A stretch of 42,814 bases of DNA from Nitrososphaerales archaeon (lineage in GTDB: Archaea > Thermoproteota > Nitrososphaeria > Nitrososphaerales > JACAEJ01): contig JACAEJ010000041.1 in NCBI GenBank assembly GCA_013388925.1, positions 1-42,814 on the forward strand, given 5' to 3'. The translations under genes were made by a program, and so were the position numbers. Positions 3,698 to 23,169 of this stretch are shown in pieces. The notes under the pieces were generated by a model. That model saw nothing but the letters and a program-made list of their open reading frames with translations. It was not told where the DNA came from and did not search any database. Every line of letters begins with the position of its first letter. Positions within the stretch are counted from its first letter, which is position 1.

Positions 3698-4087
3698 ATG
3701 ACTTGTGAGATTTGTGGAAGCCCCACCGAACGCCTGTTCTCGGTCCTGATAGAGGGCGCAACCCTTAGGGTCTGTGGCTCTTGCGCGAAGCTCGGTTCTC
3801 CGGTCAGGGAAAGAAAGGTCACTAGGGTAGCAGTGCAGAGGCCCAAGCCTCCCACCTCTTCTTTGGAGGAGCCTTCAATGGAGCTAGTACAAGAGTACCA
3901 TAGAGTAATAAAGCAGGCCAGAGAGAGGCTCGGGTTGTCCCAAGAACAGCTAGGGCACAAGATAAACGAAAAGTCTTCCGTGATAAGGCTCATGGAGAGT
4001 GGCAAGCTCAAGCCCAACGACCTTTTGGTAAGGAAGGTGGAGCACGCGCTGAAGATAAGGCTCCTTGCGCCTGTTGAGAGCGAGTGA
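3698..4087 (+). CDS. Archaeal multiprotein bridging factor aMBF1 (zinc ribbon + HTH)
   Basis: N-terminal CEICGSP...CGSC ribbon; HTH RERLGLSQEQLGHKINEKSSVIRLMESG. Confidence 0.88.
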   Translation: MTCEICGSPTERLFSVLIEGATLRVCGSCAKLGSPVRERKVTRVAVQRPKPPTSSLEEPSMELVQEYHRVIKQARERLGLSQEQLGHKINEKSSVIRLMESGKLKPNDLLVRKVEHALKIRLLAPVESE

Positions 4088-4119
4088 TTTTTCACAAGTT
4101 TGCATAATCTGATGATGCC

Positions 4120-4581
4120 TTGGACCCAAAAAAAAGGCTCTCTATGACGATAGACTACCTCTTTGGCAGAGGGACAAGTAGTGTCATCCCCGTCGATAGA
4201 CTGAACTTTGCCTTTTCCAAGAGGACTGGTAGGATGAAGAGCGTGCTGTTGGACGGCAAATTGTTGGCCACCCTTCGCTCCGATGGAGGCATAGCTCTAA
4301 CCATCCACGGAGCAGATCTACTGACAAAGCATCCAGGATTCTTCGAAAACTGTGTAGTGGTGGGAGATGAAGCAAGAGAATACGTATCCATGGGCAGATC
4401 TGCCTTTGTAAAACATGTGGTAAGCTGTGGGGACAGGATAAGGCCTGGCTCAGAAGTAGTTGTAGTGGACACTAATAGGCGGGTAATAGCAGTGGGCAAG
4501 GCCATTCTATCGGCAAGAATGATGAGGAGCTTCAAGCAAGGTGTTGCGGTAAAAGTAAGGGAGGGGATAAAAAACGTATAA
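4120..4581 (+). CDS. PUA-domain protein (archaeosine tRNA-guanine transglycosylase-like C-terminal domain)
   Basis: PUA pattern KHVVSCGDRIRPGSEVVVVDTNRRVIAVGKAILSARMM; TTG start. Confidence 0.75.
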   Translation: MDPKKRLSMTIDYLFGRGTSSVIPVDRLNFAFSKRTGRMKSVLLDGKLLATLRSDGGIALTIHGADLLTKHPGFFENCVVVGDEAREYVSMGRSAFVKHVVSCGDRIRPGSEVVVVDTNRRVIAVGKAILSARMMRSFKQGVAVKVREGIKNV

Positions 4582-4589
4582 TAACTTGA

Positions 4590-4958
4590 ATGAGCCTGTT
4601 CTTGGGCAAAGAGGCGATGGTCGTGAAGGTGGGTGATAGGCAGGCCAAGAGAATGCTAGAGAGGATGGGGGTAAACCTTGAGCCCATAAATGGAGTAGAA
4701 GAAGTTATCATAAGAACCATTAGTAAAGACATAGTCATCAGGGACCCTAACGTGTCTGAGGTCAAGGCCAAGGGAATCAGGGTCTTTCAGGTCATGGGAG
4801 AAGATATTGAGGAAAGGATCAGAGAGGCGCCCAAGTTTACTGAAGAGGATATTCTTCTGGTTGCCCAGCAGGCTAATGTATCAAAAGAAGTTGCAGCAAA
4901 TGCTTTGGCCGAATCAAATGGAGACCTAGCTCAAGCCATATTAAAGTTGACATCTTAA
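4590..4958 (+). CDS. nac: Nascent polypeptide-associated complex protein (archaeal NAC)
   Basis: NAC domain plus C-terminal UBA-like EEDILLVAQQANVSKEVAANALAESNGDLAQAILKL. Confidence 0.9.
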   Translation: MSLFLGKEAMVVKVGDRQAKRMLERMGVNLEPINGVEEVIIRTISKDIVIRDPNVSEVKAKGIRVFQVMGEDIEERIREAPKFTEEDILLVAQQANVSKEVAANALAESNGDLAQAILKLTS

Positions 4959-16509: not shown

Positions 16510-17326
16510 ATGGTAGAGAATGAACGAGAGGGAAGTTCGATGAAATCAGAAGTGACGGGAAGTGGAAAACCTGTTGTGTTGGTGCCTGGAGGGCTGACAG
16601 GTTGGTTGAGTTGGAAACCGCATGCTGAGCAACTTTCATCGCATTACAAAGTTATTCGTGTACAACTTCTCTCAGTTGATTTTGGGCTGAAAAATGCACT
16701 GCTACCACCAAATTATTCCGTCAATTTTGAAACAAATGCTTTGGAGAAGACGCTTGATAATATCGGAATTTCTGTTGCGGACTTTGTGGCATGGTCATAC
16801 GGAGCTGAGATCACTCTCAATTTCGCCCTCAATAATCCTAATCGAGTACGTTCGCTAGCACTCATTGAGCCACCTGCTATCTGGGTATTACGAAGTCGTG
16901 GTCCATTATCTAAAGAATTACTTGAGCAGTAGAAACAGATTCAGTCGCTTGGACCTAATGATGTAAGCCAGGCACAGCTTGAGTGGTTTACTCATTTTGC
17001 AGGTTTTGTGCCGGCTGGAGTGGATCCACGGAAACTCCCACAATGGCCTTTATGGGTCCAACACAGACAATCGTTACGCACTGGAGACACAGCATTTCGT
17101 CACCAAGATGACATCCGAAGGGTACAAAACTTTAAGAAACCTGTACTGTTGTTCAAGGGTTGAAGGTTCCGCCAAATTTCTTCATCAGATTATTGATATT
17201 TTAGCTGAAGAGTTTCCAAACGTAAGAGTTGAGGTACTGCCTGGCGCGCACGCACTACAGCTAGTTTCAATGGAGCGATTCACAAAAGTTCTTAATGCGT
17301 TTTTGGAACAGTCTCGCCGGCAATGA
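16510..17326 (+). pseudogene. Alpha/beta hydrolase pseudogene (in-frame TAG plus 1-nt insertion)
   Basis: GKPVVLVPGGLTGWLSW..., nucleophile-like AWSYGAE; TAG at 16930-16932 followed in frame by KQIQSLGPNDVSQAQLEWFTHF...PVLLFKG; frame changes at aagggttgaagg, continuing EGSAKFLHQIIDIL...VLPGAHALQLV. Confidence 0.8.
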
Positions 17327-19274: not shown

Positions 19275-20279
19275 ATGAAAGCCATAGTACTTCATAAACA
19301 AGCTCCTATAGAGTCAGAACCATTAGTTTATACTGATGTTGATGAGCCTGAGATACACGAGGACGAACTTTTACTCAAGGTTAATTGCTGTGGCGTTTGT
19401 AGAACGGATCTTCACATCGTGGAAGGCGAGCTACCTCCCATGAAGCTCCCGCTCATATTGGGTCACCAAGTTATAGCTATTGTCGATGATATAGGCGAAG
19501 GAGTCAAGGACGTTAAGAGAGGCGATCGAGTGGGAGTACCTTGGCTCTTTTGGAATTGTACCAAATGTAAGTACTGTAGGAGGGGTCTCGAAAACCTCTG
19601 CGACAACGCCCTCTTCACTGGATATAACGTAGATGGAGGCTACGCAGAATACATGGTTGCTAGAGGTGACTTCGTTTATCCATTGCCACAAGACTATGAC
19701 GACCTCCATGCCGCTCCGCTACTATGTGCAGGAGCAATAGGCTACAGGGCATTGAAGCTCACAGGTCTTCTAGAGAGAGAAGAAGGCAACCTAGGAATCT
19801 TCGGTTTCGGATCATCGGCACACATGATTGCTCAAGTGGCTTTAAACAAAGGTTTAGACATCTACGTCTTCACAAGAGGCAAGGAGAGGCAGGAATACGC
19901 ACTTTCCCTAGGGGCCAAATGGGCGGGAGCACCAACCGACGAAGCTCCTGTTAAGCTAGATGCAGCCATAATCTTTGCTCCAGCAGGTTGGGTTATGGTG
20001 GAGGCTCTTAAGAAGCTGGACAAAGGAGGCAGAGTGGTTCTGGCTGACATATACATGACCCCTATCGAGAAATTGGACTACAACCTGCTCTGGCTTGAAA
20101 GGGAAATCAAGAGTGTGGCCAACGTAGCCCCAATGGACGTAAGAGAGCTCCTAACCGAGGCATCTAAGGCCCATGTTAAGCCAGATGTAAAAGCCTATAT
20201 CCTAAAGGACGCCAACACGGCATTACAGGACTTGAAGCAAGGAAAGATAAGGGGCTCAGCTGTGCTGAAAATAATCTAG
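19275..20279 (+). CDS. Zinc-dependent alcohol dehydrogenase (MDR family)
   Basis: CCGVCRTDLHIVEGELPPMKLPLILGHQVIAIVDDIGEGV; CTKCKYCRRGLENLC structural zinc. Confidence 0.92.
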   Translation: MKAIVLHKQAPIESEPLVYTDVDEPEIHEDELLLKVNCCGVCRTDLHIVEGELPPMKLPLILGHQVIAIVDDIGEGVKDVKRGDRVGVPWLFWNCTKCKYCRRGLENLCDNALFTGYNVDGGYAEYMVARGDFVYPLPQDYDDLHAAPLLCAGAIGYRALKLTGLLEREEGNLGIFGFGSSAHMIAQVALNKGLDIYVFTRGKERQEYALSLGAKWAGAPTDEAPVKLDAAIIFAPAGWVMVEALKKLDKGGRVVLADIYMTPIEKLDYNLLWLEREIKSVANVAPMDVRELLTEASKAHVKPDVKAYILKDANTALQDLKQGKIRGSAVLKII

Positions 20280-20336: not shown

Positions 20337-21152
20337 TCAGATAAGTCTTATCAGCTCGGTCTTGTTTTCGGATGCTTTAACTTCTATAACATCTTCTTCT
20401 CTTATCTTTATGCCCTTTTGACTGCGGATTATGCCATAAAGTCGAGCATCACCCTTTCTTGCGAGCTTTATTCTTATCTCACTGCCATATTGGACAACGT
20501 ATCTTAAGGGATGTTCATTGGTCCCCTATCTTATTGTGTAAGTCGGAAGGATATGATATATGCCCACTTGATCCTCTTTGATTCGAGTATAAGAATCAAT
20601 GTTAAGCAAAGAACCATCCTTAATCCTATCAAGGCTTGAAAAATAGCCTGTCGAACCTGCAGAAGTTGTTACAACAACTCCATTACCTATGGCAAAATCT
20701 ATGAAGCTGAAGCCTTCTCCTTTTACCTCTACTCGATATCTTAAACAGTTACTGTTTAAACCTCTCTCAAGATAGACATCTGTGAATACGTCACTCAGTC
20801 TCTTTCCATTCAAAAGGATCATCAGCCTCTTTTGCTCAATAATGCTATAGTTACCTGCCTTGATGCACCTTAACGCATATTCTAATTCTTCAAAACCGAC
20901 TTCGGCAAAGTAGGCCTTGCTTCCTATCGGCTTCTCTCCCTCCACCCCAACAAACAAGAGGGGGATTCTTCTAACCCTGCCATAGTAGCCAAAGGTTCCA
21001 TCTCCTCCTATCACTATCCCAAATTCGGGCCTTTTCCTATCATGGACCAATCCCACTTTCTCCAAGACCTTTATGGCATCCTCCATGCTGACCTTCGGTC
21101 TTGTGGTATCGAGCAAGATTACAGCTTCCATCAATCTGAGCATGGCGTTCAA
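20337..21152 (-). CDS. NAD(+) kinase-like protein interrupted by one in-frame TAG (20526-20528)
   Basis: FGIVIGGDGTFGYYGR; VVVTTSAGSTGYFSSL; same frame continues after TAG for 62 codons: GTNEHPLRYVVQYGSEIRIKLARKGDARLYGIIRSQKGIKIREEDVIEVKASENKTELIRLI*. Confidence 0.75.
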
Positions 21153-21251: not shown

Positions 21252-22778
21252 GTGATGTTATTGTCAAAGCGTGGAGCAGAGGAGCTAAGGACCTACGAAG
21301 AGATAAACCAGAAGATAAAGAGTGGCGATGCCATAGTAATGACTGCCGATGATTTCATAAAGACTGTCGAGGATTCTGGGTTGAAAAGGGCAGCAAAGGA
21401 GGTGGATGTGGTGACTACGGGTACCTTCGGTGCCATGTGCAGCTCTGGCGCCTTCATAAACTTTGGCCACTCTGAGCCTCCAATAAAGATGTTCAAATGC
21501 TGGCTCAACGATGTCCCAGCCTACAAAGGTCTAGCGGCTGTAGATTGCTACTTGGGCGCTACTGCCATGAGTGAGACGAAGGGCTTCGATTACGGAGGTG
21601 GTCATGTGATAGAGGATCTTGTTTCGGGAAAGGAAATCGAGTTGAGGGCCGAAGCCTATGGAACCGACTGCTATCCTAGAAGATCCATAGAGACGACAGT
21701 TACCATTGACGATCTGAACCAAGCTATGTTACTTAACCCAAGAAACGCTTATGAGAGGTACAATGCCGCAACGAATGGCACTGATAGGATCATCCATACC
21801 TATATGGGCACCCTCCTCCCTCACTATGGGAACGTAACCTACTCTGGCTCTGGTCAGCTGAGCCCGTTGTACAAGGATAGAGGCTTCGAAATCATAGGGA
21901 TAGGCACTCGCATCTTCCTAGGAGGAGGCATTGGTTGTGTAATAGGAGAGGGGACGCAACATAGCCCCCAGAACCAGTTTGGCACCATAATGGTGAGGGG
22001 AGACCTCAAGCAAATGAATAATAGGTACTTGAGAGGGGCGACCTACTACAAGTATGGAACGACCCTTTATGTGGGAATCGGGATTCCTATACCAATCATC
22101 AACGAGAAGGTGGCGGCTTCAGCAGCGCTAAAGGATGAGGAAATCTTTACTGACATCCTTGATTATGGCGTACCGTCGAGAAGTAGGCCCAGCGTCAAGA
22201 GGGCATCTTACTCAGAACTGAGATCTGGTAGAGTTGAGATCAATGGAAGGGAGATAACTTCTTCCTCGCTCTCGAGCAACAAGGTGGCCAAAGAGATAGC
22301 CACGAACCTTAAAGGGTGGATAGAGGAAGGGGCCTTCTTTCTTAATAGGCCTGCAGAGCTGGTTCCAGACCATGGAGAGTTCAAGCCGTTGGAGTTAAGG
22401 AGAAAGGAGCCTAGGGTTAGAGACATAATGACAAGAGAACTGGTCGTCGGCAAGCCGACCGACGATATAAAGAGCGTGGCAAGGATACTGATAGCAAAAG
22501 GGGTGGACCATCTGCCCATAGCGGATGGTGAAGGCAAGCTCATGGGGATAATTACATCTTGGGACTTGGCCAAAGCGGTGGCTCAGGATAAAAGGCAACT
22601 ACATGAGATAATGACCATGAAGGTCGTAACAGCAAAAGAGGACGAAGCCATAGATACGGTGGTGCGGAGAATGGAGCAGCACAACATATCTGGGGTGCCC
22701 GTTGTGGATCATTCCAATCGTATATTGGGCATGTTGACTGTGAACGATATATCGAAAAAGCTCATAAGGAGGCCTTAA
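21252..22778 (+). CDS. Homocysteine biosynthesis protein (DUF39/COG1900) with C-terminal CBS pair
   Basis: VDVVTTGTFGAMCSSGAFINFGHSEPPIKM...CYLGATAMSE; two CBS repeats (VRDIMTRELVVGKPTDDIKSV..., LHEIMTMKVVTAKEDEAIDTV...). Confidence 0.9.
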   Translation: MMLLSKRGAEELRTYEEINQKIKSGDAIVMTADDFIKTVEDSGLKRAAKEVDVVTTGTFGAMCSSGAFINFGHSEPPIKMFKCWLNDVPAYKGLAAVDCYLGATAMSETKGFDYGGGHVIEDLVSGKEIELRAEAYGTDCYPRRSIETTVTIDDLNQAMLLNPRNAYERYNAATNGTDRIIHTYMGTLLPHYGNVTYSGSGQLSPLYKDRGFEIIGIGTRIFLGGGIGCVIGEGTQHSPQNQFGTIMVRGDLKQMNNRYLRGATYYKYGTTLYVGIGIPIPIINEKVAASAALKDEEIFTDILDYGVPSRSRPSVKRASYSELRSGRVEINGREITSSSLSSNKVAKEIATNLKGWIEEGAFFLNRPAELVPDHGEFKPLELRRKEPRVRDIMTRELVVGKPTDDIKSVARILIAKGVDHLPIADGEGKLMGIITSWDLAKAVAQDKRQLHEIMTMKVVTAKEDEAIDTVVRRMEQHNISGVPVVDHSNRILGMLTVNDISKKLIRRP

Positions 22779-22779
22779 G

Positions 22780-23169
22780 ATGAAACTCAAACTCAATTAT
22801 TCCCGTGAAAACATAGGAAAGCCCATTCTATCAGACATCATACTAAGAACCGGTATTCCAATAAATATCCTCGAGGCCAAGATAGAGCCCAATACTGGGG
22901 AGATGCTCATAGACGTGCCCACGGAAGGAGAGAGGTTGAAGGAGTTCTCTTCCCTGTTGCAGAGAGCCGGTGTAACGGTAAAAGAAATAACTCGAACCAT
23001 AGAGATAGACCGTGGCAAGTGCATAACCTGCGGGGCCTGCGTCTCACCGTGCCCGGTCAAGGCCCTAGCTCAGGATGAAAACTGGGATATCATATTCTAC
23101 GAAGAGAAATGTATTGGATGTGGAATCTGTGTCTATACGTGCCCAGTAAACGCCATTCGAATGCTTTAG
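22780..23169 (+). CDS. NIL-domain / 2x[4Fe-4S] ferredoxin protein
   Basis: CITCGACVSPCPVKAL and CIGCGICVYTCPVNAI; NIL-like N-terminus. Confidence 0.9.
   Translation: MKLKLNYSRENIGKPILSDIILRTGIPINILEAKIEPNTGEMLIDVPTEGERLKEFSSLLQRAGVTVKEITRTIEIDRGKCITCGACVSPCPVKALAQDENWDIIFYEEKCIGCGICVYTCPVNAIRML

Follow-up and report, generated by a model that had tools for sequence, protein, structure and literature searches.

The window, that is, the whole stretch of 42,814 nucleotides analyzed here, is contig C87 of a 1.28-Mb archaeal draft MAG (94% complete, 89 contigs), the one genome of its species in our sample. The closest relatives of this genome in the public record are Nitrososphaeria MAGs; 'Ca. 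Methylarchaeum tengchongensis' was described as a predicted methyl-dependent methanogen (PMC6783470). The minus strand of the window carries an NAD kinase-like gene interrupted by a stop codon, and the features relevant to it are:

16510..17326, plus strand: broken alpha/beta hydrolase gene (internal TAG, 16930-16932; frameshift of 1 nt, near 17160)
19275..20279, plus strand: zinc alcohol dehydrogenase gene, whose terminal TAG coincides with the end of the ortholog alignment
20337..21131, minus strand: interrupted NAD kinase-like gene, with an ATG start, a TGA stop and one internal TAG
20526..20528, minus strand: the in-frame TAG, a sense codon in orthologs
20340..20525, minus strand: post-TAG tail of 62 codons, predicted to form five beta strands and containing residues conserved in the family
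21252..22778, plus strand: homocysteine biosynthesis (HcyBio/DUF39) protein with CBS domains, an intact, divergent neighbor
22780..23169, plus strand: intact NIL-ferredoxin gene with a TAG end, whose orthologs align over all 129 residues

The synteny of the HcyBio/DUF39 neighbor is kept in relatives. A 274-codon frame that follows the TAG of the NIL-ferredoxin gene was considered as an extension of the latter and rejected, being a separate gene.

The minus-strand frame runs from a TTG at 21152 to the TGA at 20337, and its single internal stop is the TAG at 20528-20526, after which 62 sense codons follow. Comparison with orthologs favors the ATG at 21131-21129 over the TTG as start codon, with 201 codons preceding the TAG. 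When read through, the protein displays the motifs of its NAD kinase-like class (GGDGxF, TDVYLERG and TTSAGSTGYFS) and scores 34.4 bits against PF20143 (Pfam NAD_kinase_C), above the cut-off, compared with 19.4 bits for the truncated form. Moreover, an AlphaFold model of the read-through protein (pLDDT 92, with five strands predicted in the tail) matched NAD kinases in a Foldseek search against the PDB, including that of Mycobacterium tuberculosis (1u0t, E 4.5e-17, TM 0.70). The preliminary description of this DNA had proposed, from the letters alone, an in-frame UAG within an NAD kinase-like gene and a tail resembling the C-terminal beta-rich domain of NAD kinases, and both proposals are borne out by these results.

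The resemblance to NAD kinases (NADK/PpnK, PF01513 plus PF20143) extends to the fold, the GGDG motif and the glycine/serine loop, but the window protein shares only about 20% identity with them, and phosphorylation of NAD by it is putative. Where the canonical paralogs have an NE-type motif, the window protein has TDVYLERG, and their TPTGSTAY is replaced by TSAGSTGY. The NCBIfam equivalog cut-off for NAD kinase (304 bits) lies far above the best score of 71.1 bits, which marks the read-through protein, as judged from its sequence, as a divergent member or paralog of the NAD kinase superfamily, that is, as NAD kinase-like.

The alignment with orthologs, which the preliminary description had called for, showed that all 45 complete orthologs in our genome collection are uninterrupted and continue past the site with a sense codon, none of them having a TAG there. 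The column is variable (E13 L9 D8 S3 T3 R3 A2 K2 Q1 N1), and in the genus that is closest as judged from this gene the codon specifies Glu, being GAA in two genomes and GAG in one. Identity to this genus over the whole gene is 76%, and the tail is included in the end-to-end alignment. The tail is therefore coding-derived and no chance open frame, as had been suspected of the 62 codons after the stop. Its residues Arg210, Arg225 and Gly233 are invariant among the orthologs, while at one position the window gene has Gln where 44 of the 45 have Pro. Internal stops had been reported for genomes G001, G003, G021 and G026, but they are located upstream of the start codon and elsewhere than at the TAG site. 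A scan of viral contigs turned up no relatives.

It had also been argued that inactivation would be surprising, NAD kinase being normally essential, and a second NAD kinase had been proposed as a check. The search for one revealed an intact homolog of 331 aa on contig C28 (9146-10141, minus strand; L109), with both PF01513 and PF20143, a MarR-like C-terminus and the GGDG motif altered to GEDR. The class of this homolog occurs across the family, and in the genomes of a sister genus it was the sole NAD kinase homolog found by our search. The NAD kinase-like paralog is present in only part of the order and is absent from all three sister-genus genomes. Because the sister genus lives without the paralog and the window's genome has the intact 331-aa homolog, the interrupted gene is, on sequence grounds, best described as a second, lineage-restricted and dispensable NAD kinase-like paralog, and the argument from essentiality finds no support.

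UAG is an ordinary working stop in this genome. In the 285 kb surveyed, TAG terminates 66 of the 212 ORFs with 150 codons or more (31%, with 39% for TGA and 30% for TAA), and both the alcohol dehydrogenase and the NIL-ferredoxin genes beside the interrupted gene end in TAG at positions matching the ends of their orthologs.

The most plausible explanation, with a probability of about 0.68, is in our view that a dispensable NAD kinase-like gene of a hot-spring-type archaeon recently acquired a nonsense mutation. UAG would act as a stop, and translation from the ATG at 21131 would end after 201 residues. Given the conserved residues and the five predicted strands of the tail, the truncation should destroy the beta domain, and we infer a loss of activity; a product without the last five strands of this domain would probably be inactive or degraded. 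A restart yielding a separate C-terminal protein was ruled out, as the tail is devoid of in-frame ATG, GTG or TTG codons. Cellular NADP synthesis could rest on the intact homolog on contig C28, and the tail would still look coding-like since the lesion would have arisen long after the nearest genus split off.

Selection on the tail was evaluated with a codon model written for this analysis, in which synonymous sites were near saturation, so that the omega values are rough. In a joint fit with shared branch lengths, omega on the gene's own branch was roughly 0.23 before the TAG and 0.11 after it, compared with about 0.07 elsewhere. The hypothesis that the own branch equals the background was rejected (LRT 9.5, 2 df), omega being higher across the gene, and so was a neutral own-branch tail (LRT 5.8; 2.9 lnL units). 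The elevated omega, like the Gln found in the tail in place of Pro, counts in favor of a nonsense mutation. The tail fitted alone gave an own-branch omega of 0.42, indistinguishable from 1, versus 0.04. As a rough conclusion, the tail was constrained through most of its own branch, which fits either a young TAG or a tail still in use. A tail that still looks constrained suggests a recent lesion; nevertheless, the same constraint would also be expected of a translated tail.

Short-lived in-frame stops with omega below 1 have been reported as widespread in bacteria (Belinky et al. 2021, PMC7918605). The case described here is like them in having a single stop, unshared with relatives, in a conserved gene with omega below 1, and it does not differ substantially from the nonsense-type pseudogenes of that study, except that it concerns an archaeal gene in a draft MAG.

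Other broken genes were found in the same genome. The alpha/beta hydrolase gene of the same contig, located 3 kb from the NAD kinase-like gene, has intact homologs, 70-76% identical, in three other families and none that we could find among other members of its own family, suggesting that it was probably transferred and then decayed, or else mis-assembled. A Type I phosphodiesterase gene (G000:C17, L053, 7371-8663, minus strand) is split by one in-frame TGA, its halves matching complementary parts of PF01663. An ABC transporter ATPase gene (G000:C13, L049, about 3854-4759, plus strand) presents two frameshifts between conserved segments and is either a sequence error or a pseudogene. These lesions comprise a TAG with a frameshift, a TGA and frameshifts, and thus the lesions of this genome are not TAG-specific.

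We infer that the population really carries the mutation, and with a single genome of the species a consensus error is possible. In this alternative, the TAG would come from a consensus or assembly error, or from a minority strain variant captured in the MAG, and the living population would carry a functional gene with a sense codon at the site. We regard it as unlikely, though it deserves to be taken seriously. It fits the fact that the frame, intact and constrained otherwise, has just one lesion; the two frameshifts of the ABC transporter ATPase gene look like low-quality consensus, and a related public MAG bears an assembler coverage tag of just 1.7. Nevertheless, consensus errors are more often indels than base substitutions, which weighs against this explanation, as do the higher omega of the whole gene on its own branch and the presence of two lesions in the nearby alpha/beta hydrolase gene.

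A programmed or leaky readthrough of the UAG by near-cognate tRNAs, producing a short and a long isoform of which the latter would be functional, seems quite improbable. The constraint on the tail and a TAG-site column that accepts many residues would be compatible with it, and bacteria have been proposed to read through in-frame stops (PMC7918605). However, the TAG occurs in no relative, so nothing indicates a signal conserved by selection, and TAG is among the standard stops of the genome. In addition, the RNA downstream of the TAG shows no unusual structure (z = 0.13), and a recoding RNA element was rejected on this ground.

The proximity of a pyrrolysine-using lineage made recoding worth testing here. 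In the sister genus, which belongs to the same Nitrososphaeria family (G006:C59, L104, 3815-8073; also L103, L105, L117 and L118), PylS above the cut-off and tRNA-Pyl were present in all three genomes, and two of these contained an mtmB gene that has one internal TAG. The one genome checked for the whole locus has pylB, pylS, pylD and pylC over the NCBIfam cut-offs. The PylRS of these genomes has 275-292 aa and is devoid of the N-terminal domain; PylRS from Nitrososphaeria is already known from the literature (PMC7615293). In a tree of the IF2 family, the window's genus and the Pyl-carrying genus were not firmly separated (support 0.54), and the tree could not serve to place a loss of pyl, as the three genera branch in no firm order. 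A MttB-family gene of a related genome (G001:C11:1602-2846; L227-L229) contains several stops and frame changes.

The preliminary description had rightly pointed to pylT/pylS or a suppressor tRNA(CUA) as the thing to look for, and none was found in the window's genome. The profile search returned no PylS over the cut-off, the pylT of the sister genus had no match, and neither MtmB nor MttB was found; pylS and mtmB are likewise absent from three genomes of another genus. The sole call with a CTA anticodon, an ARAGORN 'tRNA-Pyl(cta)' at G000:C76:5014 (L067, 1501-1588), was discarded as a suppressor tRNA. Its fold contains a 5-bp anticodon stem, a 3-nt bulge and a 4-bp helix, as in archaeal tRNA introns, and removal of this 12-nt bulge-helix-bulge intron yields tRNA-Arg(UCU), the only representative of that isoacceptor in the set of tRNAs found. 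The spliced anticodon loop would be CCTCTAA, with C at position 33, which is usually U. Another tRNA, called Ser(ACT) by ARAGORN (G000:C73:2127, L065, 1501-1589), is better interpreted as a tRNA-Ala(UGC) in which an intron-like insert, at a non-canonical position, separates the D-stem from the anticodon stem.

The window gene resembles the Pyl-encoding genes mtmB, mtbB and mttB in its in-frame TAG, its archaeal origin and a family with Pyl-using members, but it is no methylamine methyltransferase, its TAG is unconserved and no Pyl machinery was found with it. Insertion of pyrrolysine, or another residue by a suppressor tRNA, is hardly credible: the Pyl system of the sister genus, the low support of the IF2-family tree and a genome 94% complete, from which a pyl locus could be missing, speak for it, while the negative searches for pylS, pylT, mtmB and MttB here and for pylS and mtmB in the other genus, the 31% of long ORFs ending in TAG and a variable site with no hint of a need for Pyl speak against it. 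Altogether, it is very improbable that the UAG is read through by either route, a near-cognate tRNA or a Pyl system encoded in the missing 6% of the genome, to yield the NAD kinase-like protein at full length with a residue that is non-standard or variable at this site.

By itself, one broken or mis-assembled gene means little. It illustrates that a coding-like tail past a stop, even in a family that includes a Pyl-using genus, is no evidence of recoding before decoder, stop usage and orthologs have all been examined. Should readthrough nevertheless be true, it would mean UAG decoding beyond methylamine genes in a relative of methanogens.
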